Shown here in pieces: positions 9,916-17,749 of a DNA stretch of 64,000 bases. Position numbers and translations under genes: made by a program. Every line of letters begins with the position of its first letter. Position 1 is the first letter of the stretch. This DNA is from Methanoculleus thermophilus (lineage in GTDB: Archaea > Halobacteriota > Methanomicrobia > Methanomicrobiales > Methanoculleaceae): the NCBI RefSeq assembly GCF_001571405.1, contig NZ_BCNX01000003.1:62001-126000 (forward strand). The letters are read 5' to 3'. The notes beneath the pieces are model-generated. The model was not told where the DNA came from. It searched no databases and worked only from the letters and a program-made list of their open reading frames with translations.

Positions 9916-10200
9916 TCACTCAGAGACTGCTCTATACTCCTGCATCAGGGCATCCCCATACGCCTCCCTCTTCTTTGTAGGGATGTAATTGAACGCTGAG
10001 GCCCTTCTGAGGAGCTCTTCGCGAACTGCGGCGTCGCTATCCAGATGCAGGTCCCGAACACTGGAGATGATAAACTCAAGTTGATTGATCCCGGTCGCCT
10101 TCCCGTCCACGAGGATCGTCTTGATCTTGATCGCATCTGGCCTGACCCCGCCGCAGATGGTGCAGTAGTTACCATCTTTATCGTTTGTCATGTCCATCAT
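9916..10200 (-). CDS. Conserved hypothetical protein with one CxxC
   Basis: 94 residues from the ATG at 10200, which overlaps the TGA of the cupin gene as ATGA. It opens with a YCTICGG knuckle, followed by KIKTILVDGKATGINQLE and a helical C-terminal half ending EAYGDALMQEYR. No signal peptide or membrane segment. A single CxxC could bind metal only as a dimer or take part in thiol chemistry. The tight overlap shows translational coupling to the upstream cupin, so the two probably act together. I do not recognise the family. Further in-frame ATGs at 10197 and 10191 are alternative starts. Confidence 0.6.
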   Translation of the reverse strand: MMDMTNDKDGNYCTICGGVRPDAIKIKTILVDGKATGINQLEFIISSVRDLHLDSDAAVREELLRRASAFNYIPTKKREAYGDALMQEYRAVSE

Positions 10201-10532
10201 TCCCTGATCATCGTCAGCATCATCTTGAACCGCGTGATGGCCGAGAGAGCGTGGGGAACATTTGCCGGGAAGATGATCGTATCTCCCTCGCGCATATGGT
10301 GTGTCTCGCCCGCGACCCAGACCTCGCACTCCCCGTCGAGGATCGTTACCACCGCATCGTAGGGTGCAGTATGCTCCGAGAGCCCCTCGTCCTCGTCGAA
10401 CGAGAAGAGGGTGATGCTCCCCGAGGGTTTGTTGATGATCATTCTGCTTGCCACGGTCCCGTCCTGGTAGGAGACAAGGTCCGCCAACCGAAGGACCTTT
10501 CCCTTCAACTCTGCACGCTTCTCTTCAGACAT
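10197..10532 (-). CDS. Small cupin-domain protein
   Basis: 111 residues forming one cupin barrel. Cupin motif 1 is seen around SEHTAPYDAVVTILDGE, and motif 2 around MREGDTIIFPANVPHAL, with histidines positioned as metal ligands. Such stand-alone cupins bind a metal and act as dioxygenases, isomerases or small-molecule sensors; nothing indicates which. It is followed by the coupled CxxC protein. About 20 bases upstream on the same strand lies the end of a decayed cupin of a related type, so the locus once held two cupins in a row. Confidence 0.85.
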   Translation of the reverse strand: MSEEKRAELKGKVLRLADLVSYQDGTVASRMIINKPSGSITLFSFDEDEGLSEHTAPYDAVVTILDGECEVWVAGETHHMREGDTIIFPANVPHALSAITRFKMMLTMIRE

Positions 10533-10555: not shown

Positions 10556-10914
10556 TCATCCATCCCGCCGGCAATCTATTTTTCGCATCTTGCTCACGAA
10601 TAGACGAGCATCCTGTCCACCGGGCACCGACTGGAGCGCCAGAACTGGCCCGGTGGCCTTCACCACGAGCACCCGAATGTACTATTACTCTCGTTGATCC
10701 GGCGATGCGGTATCGATGCCCGGTTCTCGACCTGGCGGTCCTTCCCGATCTCGACGATCCTTGCTCCTTCGAGGACGGAGAAGAGGACGTCCACCGGTGT
10801 TCTGCGCTCCTTGAGTGGTTCTCCGGGCGCAAGCGTTATCCCCACCGCCGCCGAGTGCTCGGTGTCGTAGATCTTCCGTGCATCGCTGTGGGGTTTGGTG
10901 ATCGGTACTTTCAG
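10556..10914 (-). pseudogene. Decayed cupin gene (frameshift)
   Basis: A frame opening with CTG at 10914, inside a CTGA overlap with the stop of the DUF2115 gene, reads KVPITKPHSDARKIYDTEHS, then GITLAPGEPLKERRTPVDVLF and VLEGARIVEIG, a recognisable cupin. It stops early at 10660 after NESNSTFGCSW. The next frame over continues RVLVVKATGP, which is the normal cupin C-terminal strand, so one base appears lost near 10673. Compared with related cupins as I remember them, a loop of about eight residues between the two cupin motifs also seems missing. The shifted frame runs to a TGA at 10556. I read it as a recent pseudogene rather than a working gene. Confidence 0.65.
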
Positions 10915-11693
10915 CCTTTATAGTTCGTCCAGTAGTTTGCGAGACATTCCCGTTTCCTCCGCTCATAACGGCGGGCCCGCATCTCCGGGTAGGTCGGCTC
11001 CTTGCTCTGGACCGCCGGGCAGTAGGGGCAGAGTGCGAAAGCCACATCATTGGCCTTATCCCTGACCGGACAGAGATAGGTCCCCTCCCACTCGTCGACG
11101 ATCTGCCCGCCGGGGAACGGTGTGCCGACCGGGTGGGCGGGCTCTTCCATGACGAACATGGTGAATGCGGAGAGGAGGTACTTCAGGTAAAGGTACCTGG
11201 GGTCTTTCTCCCGCGCCTTCTCGGCGCAGGCCTCCGCCACCATGGCGCAGTAGGCACGAAGCGCCGGGTTCGGTGGGGCGTCCAGCTCGGGACCGCCGCC
11301 GTTCCGGGAGAGGAGGATCAGGCGGTGGTGCGCCCCGAAGATCTCCTCGCGGACGCTTTCAAGAAGGCGGTCGCGGTAGTTCTCGGGGAGGTCAGCGACC
11401 TTTCGTTTGAACCGGGCGTTCATCACCTCAAGGTCGTGCAGGTCGAAGATCCCCACTTCGCAAGCGATCACACCTAGGAGGTCTCTCTTCGTTGTTGCCT
11501 CTCCCATCCGCTGGCAGGCCTTCCTGATGGTCGAGACCGATACCGACTGCCCGTTCTTCTCGTCTTCCTCCCAGTTATCAGTGAAGGGGTCGATGATGAA
11601 GGAGCAGGCATCGCGAGAACCGGCCCCGGGTGCATCGCGGGCGTCCCGGCCGATGAACCGTCGGAAGCGTTCAAGGATTCTTCTCAGCCGCAT
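10911..11693 (-). CDS. DUF2115 / UPF0305 family protein
   Basis: About 260 residues. The C-terminal part has a cluster of cysteines in CPVRDKANDVAFALCPYCPA, which looks like a metal-binding site, and a helical middle (FGAHHRLILLSR, YCAMVAEACAEKARE, YLKYLLSAFTMFV). This arrangement matches my recollection of DUF2115, a family of unknown function found in methanogens. No signal peptide or transmembrane helix, so cytoplasmic. ATG at 11693 is preferred; a TTG at 11714 is in frame but coincides with GGAG that could serve as ribosome site. Its TGA is shared with the CTG start of the decayed cupin, suggesting that the two were once coupled. Confidence 0.65.
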   Translation of the reverse strand: MRLRRILERFRRFIGRDARDAPGAGSRDACSFIIDPFTDNWEEDEKNGQSVSVSTIRKACQRMGEATTKRDLLGVIACEVGIFDLHDLEVMNARFKRKVADLPENYRDRLLESVREEIFGAHHRLILLSRNGGGPELDAPPNPALRAYCAMVAEACAEKAREKDPRYLYLKYLLSAFTMFVMEEPAHPVGTPFPGGQIVDEWEGTYLCPVRDKANDVAFALCPYCPAVQSKEPTYPEMRARRYERRKRECLANYWTNYKG

Positions 11694-12103
11694 GGTCTCA
11701 CTACTATTCTCCAATGAAGGTGGGGCATGGGGGTGTTTAATTCTGGTGTAGTTGCCATGGTAACAAAGACAAATGACCCCTTCTGGAACCAGACGATCCT
11801 CGGGTTGCGCCGCCTGCGGCCTTGCGGCCGTCAGTCTGGAACAGTTAAATCAGCGAGTTTGCCATATACTGCCGATATGTCGCAGGGCCACCCCATTGGA
11901 TCCTTCTCCCGTCCGAGAGATATGGAATCCGAAAACCGCTTGGGAACGCTTCCCTCCATGCCCCACAATCCTTTTGCAACTTCTTTTTTGGGAATATCTT
12001 CAAGAAGACCCATTGCGCCCGATCCTGGTGAGTGGCTCGATACTTATGACCGCGCCTGCATGATCATCTACCGGGGACGGTCGAAAAAGAGGGTTATTAT
12101 CGC
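11694..12103. other. Intergenic region, no supported gene
   Basis: About 400 bases between the DUF2115 start and the end of the CooS-like gene. At 11746-11759 a near-palindrome (GTTGCCATGGTAAC) lies just upstream of DUF2115 and may be an operator. A minus-strand frame of 60 codons at 11831-12013 has no family resemblance. A run of alternating GGC/GCC near 11810-11830 could form a hairpin. Confidence 0.5.
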
Positions 12104-14014
12104 CTATATTCCCAGCTTCTCCCGCTTCGCCTCGATGTGTGCGAGGATCCCCTCCGCTGCCTCCACCGCATCCGTCTCGACGTGGAGCACCCCGCCGGTG
12201 ATGCCGGGGAGGTCTTGCGTGAGGAGTTTGACGAGGTCCGGCCCCCCGGTCACGGTCGGGACCGGATTGACGTAGGTGTAGAGACCGAGCGCGAGCGCAA
12301 ACAGGGCGTCGATCGTCGCCTTCTGCTCCATGTACTCTGGAGCTGCGACGGCGACCGGGAGGTCGGGGAGGGGCACGCCGCCGAGGGCTTTGGAGACCGC
12401 GAGAAGGAGGTCGGCGCACCTACCGGTGTCGGTGCAGGTCCCAAACCCGAGCACCGGCGGTACACCGAGCGCTGAGCAGAGTCTCTTCAGCCCCGGCCCG
12501 GCCTTCTCCTTCGCCTCCGGTGAGCAGAGCCCGGCGACCTGGAGCCCGGCCACGCCGCAGCCCATCCCGAGGACCAGGATATCGCGCGCGATCAGGTTCT
12601 CCGCGACCGCGACGGTATGGACGTCCTGCCCGTAATCGCGCAGCGTGGTGCAGGAGACGAGCCCGACGACGCCCCGGATGGTCCCATCCTTGATGGCACT
12701 AAGCAACGGGTCAAGACTCCCCCCGAGCGCCTCGACGATGCTCTCTGTGGAGAACCCGACCACCGCCTCCCGCACGGGAAGACCCGGGATCGGCCTTACC
12801 TTCTCGCGCCGCTCCCGGAAGTTCTCGATCCCCATCTGGAGGAGCGCTGCCGCCTGTTCTTTTGCCTTCTCGGGGACGTACTCGAGCCTCTCCGTCCCGC
12901 CCTCAAAGACGACGACTTCGCTGACCGGGATCAGCTTGAAGTGATACTTCTCGGCGTAGAGGGGGTCGAGCGGGAGCGAGCAGTTCATGTCCGCAGCAAA
13001 GACGTCGACCGCCCCGGTGGCAAGCACCGCCTCCTGCATGATCCAGTTTCCCGTGTAGCCGTAGAAGACATTGTCCATCTCTCTTCTCTGGATCAGTTCC
13101 TGCCCGGTCTCGATGTTCGCGATGATCCTAAGCCCCTTCGCCCCCACGGCCCGAGCTTTCTCCTGCCACTCGTCGGTGCGGGCGAGGTCGATGAGAGCGA
13201 ACCCGAGGAAGGGTTCGTGGCCGTTCGGGAGGATGTTGACGTAGTCTGGATCGAGCACCCCGAGGTCGACCCGCATGGGGTGCGGGCGGGGGACGCCGTA
13301 GAGGATGTCCTGGATGTACTCGAGCACGATCTGACTCTGGTAGGCCATCGCGACGCCGAGGCGCATCGCCCGCATGGCGTGGCTCGCGTACCATCCGTCG
13401 ACGTTCGTGAGGGTCGAGGCGGTATCGACGATCGTCTCCCCATAGATCCCGCCGGGGAATAGCCCGAGACGCTTCCAGACCTCTTTACGCTCCTCCGGAG
13501 CGAGCCGCTCCACAATCAGGCTCGGCTCGTAGGTGAACCGGTGGAAGTCCTCCTCCACGAAGTCGCAGAGCCGGAGCGCGACCTCGGCATCGCTCCCGCT
13601 CGTGTCAATCCCGAGCCGTTCGGCAAACGTCCGAAGTTTTCCGGAATCCGCGATCGTGAACGGGGTCTTCCCTTCCGCGGTCGCCCGGAGGGTTCTCACC
13701 GCCTGCGCCGCATGAAAGTGGTAATTCGATGCCCCCATGACGTTCCGGAGGAGCATCATCCGCATCGCCATGCCGTCGGCGTTGATCCCGCAGACACCGC
13801 GCCAGTTCCGGGAGGCATCGGCCCGGCAGGGGCCGTTCGAGCAGAAATCGCATCGAGCGCCTGCCCGGCAGAAGGCGCATCGCCGGTCGGGGTCGTTCCC
13901 GAGACCCTGAGCCTCGTAGCGGTCCCAGACGTTCGACATGCCGTCCGCTTTGAGCCGCTGATAGACGGTCCTCACCGAGTCGTGGTAGGATATCCTGTCG
14001 CTCTCCATGGTCAT
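12104..14014 (-). CDS. cooS: CooS-family Ni-CODH catalytic subunit homologue, atypical active site
   Basis: 636 residues from the ATG at 14014. The N-terminal CxxC plus C-x2-C-x4-C cluster (Cys46, 49, 55, 58, 63 and Cys75) supplies the B- and D-cluster ligands. C-cluster ligands aligned with C. hydrogenoformans CODH-II numbering are His266 (GHEP, for H261), Cys345 (ADMNC, C333), Cys455 (VSCTT, C446), Cys486 (GMGC, C476), Cys527 (GTC, C526) and Lys565 (EQK, K563). The position of Cys295, normally within CCTGNE, reads IETGQE here, so the ligand is Glu302. Glu at this site is a ligand in hybrid-cluster proteins. CO oxidation therefore cannot be assumed. No cooF, cooC or acetyl-CoA synthase gene is near. 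A TATA-like ACATACTTATGG about 30 bases upstream suggests a leaderless transcript; the in-frame ATG at 14008 is an alternative. Confidence 0.88.
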   Translation of the reverse strand: MTMESDRISYHDSVRTVYQRLKADGMSNVWDRYEAQGLGNDPDRRCAFCRAGARCDFCSNGPCRADASRNWRGVCGINADGMAMRMMLLRNVMGASNYHFHAAQAVRTLRATAEGKTPFTIADSGKLRTFAERLGIDTSGSDAEVALRLCDFVEEDFHRFTYEPSLIVERLAPEERKEVWKRLGLFPGGIYGETIVDTASTLTNVDGWYASHAMRAMRLGVAMAYQSQIVLEYIQDILYGVPRPHPMRVDLGVLDPDYVNILPNGHEPFLGFALIDLARTDEWQEKARAVGAKGLRIIANIETGQELIQRREMDNVFYGYTGNWIMQEAVLATGAVDVFAADMNCSLPLDPLYAEKYHFKLIPVSEVVVFEGGTERLEYVPEKAKEQAAALLQMGIENFRERREKVRPIPGLPVREAVVGFSTESIVEALGGSLDPLLSAIKDGTIRGVVGLVSCTTLRDYGQDVHTVAVAENLIARDILVLGMGCGVAGLQVAGLCSPEAKEKAGPGLKRLCSALGVPPVLGFGTCTDTGRCADLLLAVSKALGGVPLPDLPVAVAAPEYMEQKATIDALFALALGLYTYVNPVPTVTGGPDLVKLLTQDLPGITGGVLHVETDAVEAAEGILAHIEAKREKLGI

Positions 14015-14061
14015 GGTGAGTGACACTCGCCACAACCATAAGTATGTGTCGGTACCGCGGC

Positions 14062-14406
14062 TTACCCCTCCTCAAGGTAGCGTTTCAGCGCCACGGCGTT
14101 GTTATGCTCCTCGTCTTTAGCGGCGTAGAGAAGCGTCACGGTCCCTTCAGCCGCCTCTCTCTGGAGTTTGGCGAGCGTCTCCTCTTTTTCCTCGAGTTCG
14201 GCCCGGTAGCGCCGGAGGAACTCCTCCCACTTTGCCGGGTCGTGCCCGAACCATCGGCGCAGTTCGTTGCTCGGTGCAAGGTCTTTCTCCCACCGGTCGA
14301 CCACTGCCTTCTCCTTCGAGAGACCCCGCGGCCAGAGCCGGTCGACGAGGATCCGGGTCCCGTCGTCCTCCGAGGGTTCTTCATAGATCCTCTTTGTACG
14401 CAGCAT
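14062..14406 (-). CDS. DUF488 (YeaO-like) family protein
   Basis: 114 residues with the hallmarks of DUF488: TRILVDRLWPRGLSKE near the N-terminus, WEKDLAPSNELRRWFGHD in the middle, and TLLYAAKDEEHNNAV near the end, the last usually ending in a conserved histidine-asparagine pair. The family is small, cytoplasmic and of unknown function; it is widespread in bacteria and archaea. It ends 47 bases before the CooS-like gene on the same strand and may be co-transcribed with it. About 150 bases of divergent promoter separate it from the cupredoxin gene. Confidence 0.88.
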   Translation of the reverse strand: MLRTKRIYEEPSEDDGTRILVDRLWPRGLSKEKAVVDRWEKDLAPSNELRRWFGHDPAKWEEFLRRYRAELEEKEETLAKLQREAAEGTVTLLYAAKDEEHNNAVALKRYLEEG

Positions 14407-14515
14407 GAGGGGGGATACGGCGGCCCCTCACATAACACTGTCCCCCGCGAAAACCTGGCCGGTATTTCAGGACATTCACGAAGATCTCGATGTATATTGG
14501 TGTATGGTACACACC

Positions 14516-14530
14516 TGCGAAAAGTATATT
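14516..14530 (+). promoter_or_regulatory. TATA promoter shared with the PQQ gene
   Basis: TGCGAAAAGTATATT with the TATA-like core about 30-35 bases before the ATG at 14558. The same 14 bases (TGCGAAAAGTATAT) occur 41 bases before the ATG of the gene at 15593. Matching sequence and spacing in front of two genes with shared domains point to a duplicated promoter. Confidence 0.65.
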
Positions 14531-14557
14531 ACACTCGTTTCCATCCCCTGCCCCCGT

Positions 14558-15334
14558 ATGACTGGATTGGCGAGACTCCTGATCGTCACCCTGATGATAG
14601 GGTGCGTGGCTCTCTTCTCCGGGGCGGTTGCCCAGGAGTATGGGGGCGACCAGACCCCGGTCCCGACCATGGCCGGGGGCGAGACCAATGAGACAAATGT
14701 CACCATCACGTCGCCGGAGGTTAATGCCAGCATCCCTGCTGGAAACGTCACGGTGAGCGTGAACGTCACGAACTTCACGCTCGTCGAGCCGACCGGGCAG
14801 CCGAATGTGCCGGGCGAAGGGCACCTGCACTACTACCTGGACGCCCCGATACCGACGAATGCAAGTGAACCGGCCATCCCGCCGACCGGCGGCTACGTCA
14901 TCTCCACGAACCTCACCCATACCTGGGAGAACGTGACGGCGGGCGAACACAACTTCTCGGTTCAACTGGTCAACAACGACCACACGCCGCTCATTCCGCT
15001 CGTCTTTGCAACAGTGAACGTCACCGTCGATGGGAACGCGACCGAAAATGCAACGACGGTAAACATCACGGCACAGGATATCGCGTTCGATACGGAGACC
15101 ATCACGGTGCCAGCGGGAGCGAACGTGACGATGGTCTTCAATAATATGGACAGCGTCCCCCACAACGTTGCAATCTATGACAGTTCTCTCCGGTCGGAAG
15201 AGATCTTCGTGGGCGATATCATCACCGGCCCTGCTGAGATCACCTACAACTTCACGGCGCCATCCGAGCCGGGAACCTACTACTTCCAGTGTGATGTCCA
15301 TCCATCCATGAATGGTGACTTCATTGTGGAGTGA
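14558..15334 (+). CDS. Secreted cupredoxin protein with an N-terminal beta-sandwich domain
   Basis: 258 residues. A signal peptide (LLIVTLMIGCVALFSGAVAQ) is followed by a short Thr/Asn-rich linker and a beta-sandwich at about 45-155 with EGHLHYYLDAP and NNDHTPLIPLVF, which looks like a DUF4399-type domain. A cupredoxin at about 168-258 ends the protein. Type-1 copper ligands are visible: His in VPHNVAIY, then Cys, His and Met in CDVHPSMNG. Many N-x-T/S sequons suggest glycosylation outside the cell. Small blue-copper proteins carry single electrons or buffer copper. The neighbouring PQQ-like gene has the same signal peptide and cupredoxin, so both probably act in one extracytoplasmic redox process; the partner is unknown. 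Confidence 0.88.
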   Translation: MTGLARLLIVTLMIGCVALFSGAVAQEYGGDQTPVPTMAGGETNETNVTITSPEVNASIPAGNVTVSVNVTNFTLVEPTGQPNVPGEGHLHYYLDAPIPTNASEPAIPPTGGYVISTNLTHTWENVTAGEHNFSVQLVNNDHTPLIPLVFATVNVTVDGNATENATTVNITAQDIAFDTETITVPAGANVTMVFNNMDSVPHNVAIYDSSLRSEEIFVGDIITGPAEITYNFTAPSEPGTYYFQCDVHPSMNGDFIVE

Positions 15335-15551
15335 TCGGAACAAACGGGTGTGAAGAGCTGGGCTGCTCGCTCTTCTTACCCCTCTTCTCTTCGATACCGG
15401 TACTGTGTAGATCTATCGGCTCCGGGAGCGGATCAGCGTTCGGGTAGGCATCCGATCAATCGCACTTCTACGGATCCAGCACAGCATGACTGGGCCTGTG
15501 TAATATGGTATTCAGTCAAACGGGCTTATTCTGGCAAAATTACGGCATTCT

Positions 15552-15566
15552 TGCGAAAAGTATATA
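15552..15566 (+). promoter_or_regulatory. TATA promoter of the PQQ-cupredoxin gene
   Basis: TGCGAAAAGTATATA, 41 bases before the ATG at 15593. It repeats the element in front of the upstream cupredoxin gene, so this gene has its own promoter although it lies on the same strand, with about 260 bases in between. Confidence 0.65.
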
Positions 15567-15592
15567 GCACGCACATATCATCCCTGCGCCGT

Positions 15593-17749
15593 ATGCAGAG
15601 ACTGTTGAGACTCCTGATCGTCACCCTTGTGATAGGGTGTTTAACGCTCTTCTCCGGGGCGGTCGCCCAGGAGGAGAACGCGACTAACATGACCAACGAG
15701 ACAGCAGGATCACAGACGGCGGACGGAGTCCCGCTGGAGATCGTGCAGTATGCGGCTGATTGGCCGCTACCCAATAGAGATTACGAGAATACCCGGGCAA
15801 CGACAGATGTATCGATTAGCAAAGAGAACGTGAACGATCTGGCAATCGCCTGGACGTTCGATATCAACGCCACCGGCACCTTTGGCGGCGCAAGCAGCAA
15901 CCCCATCATCATGGGGGACACCGTCTACTTCCAGGATCTCCACGCCAACACCTACGCCTTAAACCTCGCCGATGGTTCGGTGACGTGGGAGAAGATCTAC
16001 AACAACACCACCGTGACCGGGCCGAACGGGCCGGCGGTCGGGTGGGGTAAGGTCTTCGTGACGAACGACCCCTTCTCCATCGCAGCGTTGAACGCATCGA
16101 GCGGTGAGGAACTCTGGGTGATGCAGCTCATCAACACCACGCCTCTTGCCGGGGAGATCATCGGTGAGGGTATCGACATTCAGCCCACGGTCTACAACAA
16201 CCTCGTCTTCACCTCGACGGTCCCCGGACGCGGTGATGTCTTCTACCGGGGCGGCGCCGTAGGGATCCTCTATGCTCTCGACCAAGAGACCGGTGAGGTT
16301 GTCTGGAACTTCAGCACGGTCGACGACCCGGCGAGCATCTGGGGCAACCCTGAGGTCAACAGCGGCGGCGGAGCCTGGTACACTCCGGCCGTGGACACCG
16401 GGACCGGCATTACATACTGGTCGATAGCAAACCCGGCGCCGTTCGCGGGAACACCTGAATTCCCGAACGGCGCAAGTCGTCCCGGCCCGAACCTCTACAC
16501 AAACACCCTGATGGCACTCGACCATGCAACCGGGGATATGGTCTGGTTCACGCAGGTTCTCCCGCACGACCTCTTCGACCACGACCTCCAGATGCCGCCG
16601 ATCCTCGCCGATGCCAACATCAGCGGAGAGGATCAGAAGATCGTGATCAGCGGCGGAAAGATGGGCAGGGTCTACGCCTTCAACCGTGACACTGGCGCTA
16701 TCCTCTGGGTGTCCGTCGTGGGCAGGCACGAGAATGATCATCTTGCAGCCCTCCCGCCCGGCAACACCACGGTCTACCCTGGAGCGCTCGGCGGTGTCGA
16801 GACCCCGATGGCCTACGCGAACGGCACGGTCTACGTGCCCTACGTTGACCTCTACACCAACTGGACGCCGGAAAGCTCGCTCTCCATTGGTGTTGAGGGC
16901 GCACCTCAGGCGGAGATCCAGCCGGTTCCCGAAGGTACGGGCGGGCTTGTGGCTATTGAGGCCAATAGCGGCAAGGTCCTCTGGGACAGGAAACTTGACT
17001 CCATCAACGTCGGCGGCGCAACGGTCGTCAATGACCTGGTCTTTACGGGAACGTTCAACGGGACGATCTACGCGTTTGACGCGGTGACCGGCGAAGAGGT
17101 CTGGAACTTCACTGCACCTGCAGGCATCAACGCCTGGCCTGCGGTTGCAGGAGACACCATCGTCTGGCCCTGCGGTGTCGGTGAGATGGCCCAGGTCATA
17201 GCACTCCGTCCGGGTGGTATGGCCAACGTGACCCCGACTCCGACGGTGAACGTCACTCCGGCAGCGCCAGTGAACATGACCCCGACTCCGACGGTGAATG
17301 TCACTCCGGCAGCGCCAGTGAACATGACCCCGATGCCAACAATGAACGTCACCCCGACTCCGACGGTGAACGTGACGCCAACAGTGAATGTCACCCCGGC
17401 GCTGACGGTCAACGTCACTCAGACGCCAACGGAGAACGTGACCCCGACAACCCCCGAGGCCGAGATGATGGTGAACATCTCTGCCGATAACCTCGCCTTC
17501 GACACGGAGACCATCACGGTGCCGGCGGGGGCGAACGTAACGATGGTCTTTGACAATCAGGACGGGGGTATACCTCACAACGTCGCTATCTACGACAGTC
17601 CCCTTCGATCCGAGGAGATATTTGTGGGTGAGGTCATCACCGGACCTGCCCAGATCACCTACAACTTCACGGCGCCATCCGAGCCGGGAACCTACTATTT
17701 CCAGTGCGATGTCCACCCCTCGATGAATGGCGACTTCATTGTGGAGTGA
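15593..17749 (+). CDS. PQQ-dehydrogenase-like beta-propeller fused to a cupredoxin
   Basis: 718 residues from the ATG at 15593. The signal peptide is nearly identical to that of the previous gene. Residues about 50-545 form a propeller with repeated blade ends of the type TGE(V/L)xW (TGEVVWNF, TGAILWVS, SGKVLWDR, TGEEVWNF). LPHDLFDHD followed by PPILAD matches the region of PQQ alcohol dehydrogenases that carries the catalytic Asp. GGGAWYTP and IANPAPF sit where those enzymes have the PQQ-stacking Trp and a calcium-ligand Asn. Then comes a linker of NVTPTPTV-type repeats (about 545-620) and a C-terminal type-1 copper cupredoxin (His in IPHNVAIY; Cys, His and Met in CDVHPSMNG). The arrangement suggests direct transfer from a quinone site to copper outside the cell. 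Substrate and cofactor loading are unknown, and no PQQ biosynthesis genes are in the window. Confidence 0.85.
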   Translation: MQRLLRLLIVTLVIGCLTLFSGAVAQEENATNMTNETAGSQTADGVPLEIVQYAADWPLPNRDYENTRATTDVSISKENVNDLAIAWTFDINATGTFGGASSNPIIMGDTVYFQDLHANTYALNLADGSVTWEKIYNNTTVTGPNGPAVGWGKVFVTNDPFSIAALNASSGEELWVMQLINTTPLAGEIIGEGIDIQPTVYNNLVFTSTVPGRGDVFYRGGAVGILYALDQETGEVVWNFSTVDDPASIWGNPEVNSGGGAWYTPAVDTGTGITYWSIANPAPFAGTPEFPNGASRPGPNLYTNTLMALDHATGDMVWFTQVLPHDLFDHDLQMPPILADANISGEDQKIVISGGKMGRVYAFNRDTGAILWVSVVGRHENDHLAALPPGNTTVYPGALGGVETPMAYANGTVYVPYVDLYTNWTPESSLSIGVEGAPQAEIQPVPEGTGGLVAIEANSGKVLWDRKLDSINVGGATVVNDLVFTGTFNGTIYAFDAVTGEEVWNFTAPAGINAWPAVAGDTIVWPCGVGEMAQVIALRPGGMANVTPTPTVNVTPAAPVNMTPTPTVNVTPAAPVNMTPMPTMNVTPTPTVNVTPTVNVTPALTVNVTQTPTENVTPTTPEAEMMVNISADNLAFDTETITVPAGANVTMVFDNQDGGIPHNVAIYDSPLRSEEIFVGEVITGPAQITYNFTAPSEPGTYYFQCDVHPSMNGDFIVE

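Follow-up and report, generated by a model that had tools for sequence, protein, structure and literature searches.

A CooS-V-type protein as the only carbon monoxide dehydrogenase homologue in Methanoculleus

In Ni-containing carbon monoxide dehydrogenases (CODHs), Cys295 ligates the nickel-iron C-cluster. We analysed 64,000 nucleotides of the Methanoculleus thermophilus genome (the window; contig NZ_BCNX01000003.1, positions 62,001 to 126,000), in which an initial annotation had noted a CooS homologue with glutamate at this position. Is the product of this gene still a CODH and, if not, what might a methanogen use it for?

Gene and cluster residues

The longest open reading frame runs uninterrupted from a TTG start at 14035 to 12104 on the reverse strand and encodes a full-length CooS-type product. 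The ATG at 14008 is favoured as the likeliest start, because most relatives outside Methanoculleus align from residue 10 of this reading frame; the predicted protein (12104–14008, reverse strand) would then comprise 634 amino acids. Residue numbers below count from the TTG, from which the glutamate in question is residue 309. It is residue 302 from the ATG at 14014, the numbering used in the initial annotation, and residue 300 from the ATG at 14008.

We aligned the window protein with CooS-V of C. hydrogenoformans and with three true CODHs (6T7J, 6B6V, 6ELQ). The motif IETGQE stands opposite CCTGNE of the Cys295 CODHs and IESGQE of CooS-V, with the GAG codon at 13109–13111 (reverse strand) at the position of Cys295 of CODH-II and Glu295 of CooS-V. 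The substitution was thus annotated correctly, and the alignment offers no substitute cysteine at the site. The other five C-cluster ligands and the catalytic lysine had been described as retained, and all six were matched. On the reverse strand, they are His273 (13217–13219; CooS-V His259, CODH-II H261), Cys352 (12980–12982; CooS-V Cys338, C333), Cys462 (12650–12652; CooS-V Cys449, C446), Cys493 (12557–12559; CooS-V Cys480, C476), Cys534 (12434–12436; the persulfide Cys521 of CooS-V, C526) and Lys572 (12320–12322; K563).

Further residues on the same strand complete the picture. Tyr105 (13721–13723) occupies the position of the acid–base residue His93, and asparagine precedes the Cys333 position. 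Glu570 (12326–12328) aligns with Glu556 of CooS-V and Glu494 of the D. vulgaris hybrid-cluster protein (HCP; Inoue 2019, PMC6344411), at a site that is Ser or His in the true CODHs compared. The D-cluster motif is of type III (C-x2-C-x5-C) with Cys53 and Cys56 (13868–13879) and Cys62, while the B-cluster cysteines are Cys62, 65, 70 and 82 (13790–13852). Hence, the glutamate at 295 appears in the alignment as only one part of a signature, accompanied by the tyrosine for His93, the second glutamate (E570) and Cys41 of the D-cluster.

This signature of structural group D-1 (Glu295, Tyr for His93, Asn before Cys333, the second Glu, Lys563 and Cys41 of the D-cluster) was invariant in 82 of the 82 aligned sequences, a count that for the second Glu and the Lys is partly by construction, because both sat in a search pattern. 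Apart from the window protein and CooS-V, the set consists of 80 loci distributed over Methanomicrobiales, Methanosarcinaceae, Archaeoglobus, Thermoplasmata, ANME-1, Asgard archaea, Bathyarchaeota, Chloroflexi, Actinobacteria, Desulfobacterota and WOR-3. The signature was also invariant in nine archaeal sequences of 51–55% identity. For the window gene against five congeners, dN/dS was 0.08–0.13, and among in-frame Methanoculleus copies in general it ranged from 0.08 to 0.18 (comparisons with locus L045 were out of frame and left out). The presence of Glu in all 82 sequences, together with the low dN/dS, implies that it reflects neither chance nor decay.

Two deviating homologues were seen in other genomes. 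One (L132, G064:C3, 1513–3375, reverse strand) is 42% identical to the window protein and has aspartate at the Cys295 site (MDTGQE), together with Tyr for His93 and the HCP-type Glu; its Cys41 site is Gly. It amounts to a naturally occurring C295D-like variant, and its branch lies outside the Glu group. The other (L135, G132:C15, 1549–3333, reverse strand) is a CooS on a long branch that keeps the HCP-type Glu but has Tyr in place of His93 and Gln in place of Lys563; it resembles clade C or a further deviant form.

Relation to CooS-V, Ni-CODHs and hybrid-cluster proteins

A phmmer search against the PDB returned CooS-V of C. hydrogenoformans (7B7Q) as the top hit (674 bits, 53% identity over the whole chain), followed by a Thermococcus CODH at 403 bits. 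An AlphaFold (AF2) model built with 28 relatives (pLDDT 90.3, pTM 0.92) had CooS-V as its best fold match (TM 0.96, rmsd 1.5; top PDB hits 7B9A/7B7Q), compared with TM 0.91–0.93 and rmsd 1.9–2.5 for the true CODHs listed. In a tree obtained by quick search, the window protein, CooS-V and the Glu relatives formed a group of 96 rows apart from the Cys295 CODHs (SH-aLRT 92); the position of the root is unsure because the outgroup branches are long. Within this group the window protein belongs to a subclade of 86 rows (support 100) that excludes CooS-V. Members of the subclade from outside the genus are about 66–75% identical to the window protein, across phyla, versus 53% for CooS-V.

The window protein shares with CooS-V (7B7Q/7B7T/7B95/7B97/7B9A; PMC9311411) the B-, D- and hybrid-cluster residues, the fold and the whole length. 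CooS-V likewise has Tyr for His93, Glu295, Glu556 and Lys558; its B-cluster spacing is x12, whereas that of the window protein is x11. Every feature tabulated for group D-1 by Inoue 2019 (PMC6344411) is shared as well: the type III D-cluster, the H/E/C/C/C/C row, Tyr, Lys and the HCP-type Glu. By these sequence features, the protein is assigned to the CooS-V type of CODH clade D, structural group D-1, a type that has already been published (Inoue 2019; Jeoung 2022).

HCPs have a similar active-site ligand chemistry. The set of H, E, four C, E and K is present in the window protein; its E570 lines up with the Glu of the HCP that this genome encodes, and the first Glu is not aligned by sequence. 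In contrast to HCPs, the window protein has a CODH-type predicted fold and a D-cluster, and the HCP model TIGR01703 gave 28.8 bits, below its cut-off of 360.8.

The structure and chemistry of CooS-V have been described by Jeoung 2022 (PMC9311411). Its cluster is [4Fe-3S] when reduced and [4Fe-2S-S*-2O-2(H2O)] when oxidised, which bears out the statement in the initial annotation that CODH-V holds a hybrid-type cluster rather than NiFe. CooS-V has neither nickel nor CO oxidation or CO2 reduction, its NO reduction was not above background, and it reduces hydroxylamine slowly (kcat 0.13 s-1, kcat/KM 20 M-1 s-1). In the oxidised state a persulfide on Cys521, the counterpart of Cys534, blocks the channel, from which the authors suggested a reductase (PMC9311411). 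They describe Glu295 as binding Fe3 in the oxidised and Fe4 in the reduced state (PMC9311411); Fujishiro 2023 (PMC10502027) differs in describing it as not ligated.

Could the window protein nevertheless be a divergent Ni-CODH that still oxidises CO, with Glu coordinating the unique Fe? It shares with monofunctional Ni-CODHs (CODH-II, CODH-IV, D. vulgaris, Thermococcus sp. AM4) the fold, the B-cluster, five of the six C-cluster ligands and Lys563, and it scores 701 bits against TIGR01702, the NCBIfam equivalog model for CODH, with a cut-off of 478. Yet it differs from them by Glu for Cys295, Tyr for the acid–base His93, Asn for the Gln before Cys333 and Glu for the Ser or His two residues before the Lys. 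Moreover, its nearest characterised relative has no nickel and no activity with CO or CO2, and the C295E variant of CODH-II is cited in PMC9311411, together with C295A, as Ni-deficient and inactive on CO when produced in E. coli. The genome also lacks CdhA and CdhC. We consider a functional Ni-CODH very improbable. The view that this CooS homologue is not a Ni-CODH and has a hybrid-type cluster is well supported by homology, because every sequence feature that defines the CooS-V branch is present.

Genome content and gene neighbourhood

The genome encodes two proteins of the prismane family, the CooS-V-type protein and an HCP of 538 amino acids, of class I by cysteine spacing and length. CdhA was not found over the cut-off in any of 35 Methanoculleus genomes, and was found in one genome of another genus of the family; a whole-genome search for CdhC/ACS in the window genome gave none. 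Deficiency in CODH/ACS and a requirement for acetate have been reported for Methanoculleus (PMC8621161). Since CdhA and CdhC are both absent, the window genome has no acetyl-CoA pathway for the CooS-V-type protein to serve.

Hence, in Methanoculleus the CooS-V type is the only CODH homologue, which is new with respect to the published accounts considered here. Whereas C. hydrogenoformans has four true CODHs, the window genome has none, and this sole-homologue status contradicts the published view that genes of this type are always accompanied by another CODH (PMC6344411). Among 296 genomes of the phylum, 57 have a close D-1 gene, and 20 of these lack CdhA; 15 of the 20 have no second CooS among the matches listed. 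Outside Methanoculleus, a single CooS match is firm in G162 and G238 only.

Several Methanoculleus genomes carry a gene for a bifunctional ACS alpha/beta protein of 673 amino acids (NF040764, over cut-off; e.g. L194, 206–2227, forward strand) despite having no CdhA. This raises the idea that the CooS-V-type protein stands in for the absent CODH beside the retained acetyl-CoA synthase. The window genome, however, has CooS-V and no CdhC, and the two genes occur independently, with ACS in 9 of the 20 genomes with CooS-V and 7 of the 20 without. The distance between them in G002 is about 145 kb. Such a partnership is extremely unlikely.

The initial annotation had found no cooF, cooC or ACS nearby, and indeed none was among the neighbours, which are DUF488, DUF2115 and cupin genes. 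Directly upstream of the CooS-V-type gene, and on the same strand, lies a DUF488 gene of the inactive subclade N3i (14062–14406; Pfam PF22752, 146.9 bits); it has this position in 8 of the 9 Methanoculleus loci compared. The gene order shared by most of the Methanoculleus genomes examined runs from DUF488 through CooS-V, a NirB-like siroheme protein (some genomes only), DUF2115, cupin A, a NapH-like 4Fe-4S membrane protein and cupin B to a small CxxCGG protein. The window locus retains, all on the reverse strand, DUF2115 (10911–11714), cupin B (10197–10532; Cupin_2) and an uncharacterised CxxCGG protein of about 91 amino acids (9919–10191; 73% identical to a Methanoculleus homologue, no Pfam match). 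It lacks the NirB-like and NapH-like genes, and cupin A (10675–10899) is a decayed remnant, a shortened 61% partial match with a broken frame. In three loci without CooS-V (L191, L192, L193), DUF488 adjoins the NirB-like gene, with the CooS-V gap between them, and they are otherwise collinear with loci that have the gene (L119, L121). The CooS-V gene is thus a presence/absence cassette at one fixed site behind the DUF488 gene.

Three ideas about the neighbours were discarded. The NirB-like protein is not an obligate partner, since genomes that lack CooS-V can have it too and the window genome does not. Selenocysteine in the NirB-like paralogues was rejected, the inner TGA being most simply the normal stop codon that closes the match (BLAST alignments had no internal stops). 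The 4Fe-4S protein is not a local electron donor, since the genome's homologue is on another contig. We found no relative among the viral contigs searched and no PADLOC match to a defence system. Divergent from the locus, positions 14405–17749 (forward strand) encode a secreted cupredoxin-like protein and a fusion of a PQQ-type beta-propeller with a cupredoxin, here in a methanogen; other Methanoculleus have related copies close to the locus.

Outside the genus, neighbours of D-1 cooS genes were counted with close relatives included and uncorrected for relatedness. Cupin B homologues lie at most about 200 bases downstream in 10 loci (Methanomicrobiales, Asgard archaea, a Dehalococcoidia and others), cupin A homologues are adjacent in 8 loci, six of them in Actinobacteria, and the 4Fe-4S protein in 13. 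A putative copper-type P-ATPase follows directly in six Methanosarcinaceae (L072, L074, L076, L093, L099, L114), and regulators named Rrf2-like by eye adjoin the gene in three loci, upstream of it in WOR-3 bacteria. In several Asgard loci, a rubredoxin-type NAD reductase is divergent from the D-1 gene, and a putative flavodiiron protein (named by eye) lies further on. These stress-type neighbours are absent from the window locus, and for clade D a survey of CODH neighbourhoods published in eLife discerned no clear pattern (PMC13056359).

Candidate function and implications

Taken together, the D-1 signature, the predicted fold, the clade and the absence of CdhA and CdhC are best explained by a CooS-V-type protein that probably holds a Ni-free hybrid cluster and acts as a low-potential reductase without CO chemistry. 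By analogy, the window protein is likely to share the cluster type and the channel gating of CooS-V, as well as its lack of CO chemistry. It would form a homodimer built on the CODH scaffold, with Glu in place of the cysteine ligand of the unique Fe in the Ni-Fe C-cluster, giving a nickel-free [4Fe-3S-nO] hybrid cluster. Electrons would enter via the intersubunit [2Fe-2S] D-cluster and the [4Fe-4S] B-cluster. Once the protein is reduced, the persulfide Cys534 would swing off and open the gas channel; a small oxidised substrate could then bind the cluster and be reduced, after which the cluster would rearrange and close. Neither CO oxidation nor CO2 reduction would take place.

In a CODH/ACS-deficient methanogen, the likeliest role would be that of a low-potential reductase for reactive nitrogen or oxygen species. 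We regard such a function in redox or nitrosative stress as plausible, at somewhat less than even chances. The initial annotation had proposed hydroxylamine reduction or a role in redox stress instead of CO oxidation; homology supports the exclusion of CO oxidation, but the hydroxylamine part is a weak guess, because CooS-V is slow and showed no NO reduction. For the same reason, the proposed substrate class as a whole is weak. The HCP gene in the window genome points towards a stress role, and so do the rubredoxin-type NAD reductase, the putative flavodiiron protein and the Rrf2-like regulators near D-1 genes of other lineages. In genomes of the family, HCP and CooS-V occurred together in 17, one without the other in 3 and 3, and neither in 17 (Fisher p 2e-5), but the association was not significant once corrected for relatedness on an aEF-2 tree, with too few independent pairs to decide, and a functional link to HCP was therefore not retained. 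No HCP was found in the 28 genomes of the subgroup with 49–55% identity.

An alternative is that the protein works mainly as a redox sensor or regulator rather than an enzyme, its hybrid cluster reporting potential or a small molecule. Clade D genes are reported to be mostly solitary, with regulators among the few genes nearby, and redox sensing has been suggested as their role (PMC13056359); in CooS-V the channel and the cluster switch with redox state, and turnover of the sole tested substrate is slow (PMC9311411). The retained B- and D-cluster electron path and the channel-gating Cys would rather suit a reductase, and no conserved transcription factor lies beside the gene in Methanoculleus. 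We therefore regard a sensor as unlikely.

More speculatively, D-1 CooS could be a widespread, horizontally shared module with small cupins, and with the 4Fe-4S protein in many lineages, for a still undescribed low-potential reduction unrelated to CO, which in Methanoculleus would operate without any CODH in the cell; we hold this broader picture to be doubtful.

These results imply that genomes of this kind will receive a CODH annotation although they almost surely have no CODH, as the NCBI model scores well above its cut-off. The CooS-V carriers investigated to date (C. hydrogenoformans, A. fulgidus, C. autoethanogenum) produce true CODHs as well. Because CooS-V is the sole CODH homologue in Methanoculleus, its role could be tested there without the background of a real CODH, and close relatives that miss only the CooS-V gene at the same site would allow a clean comparison.
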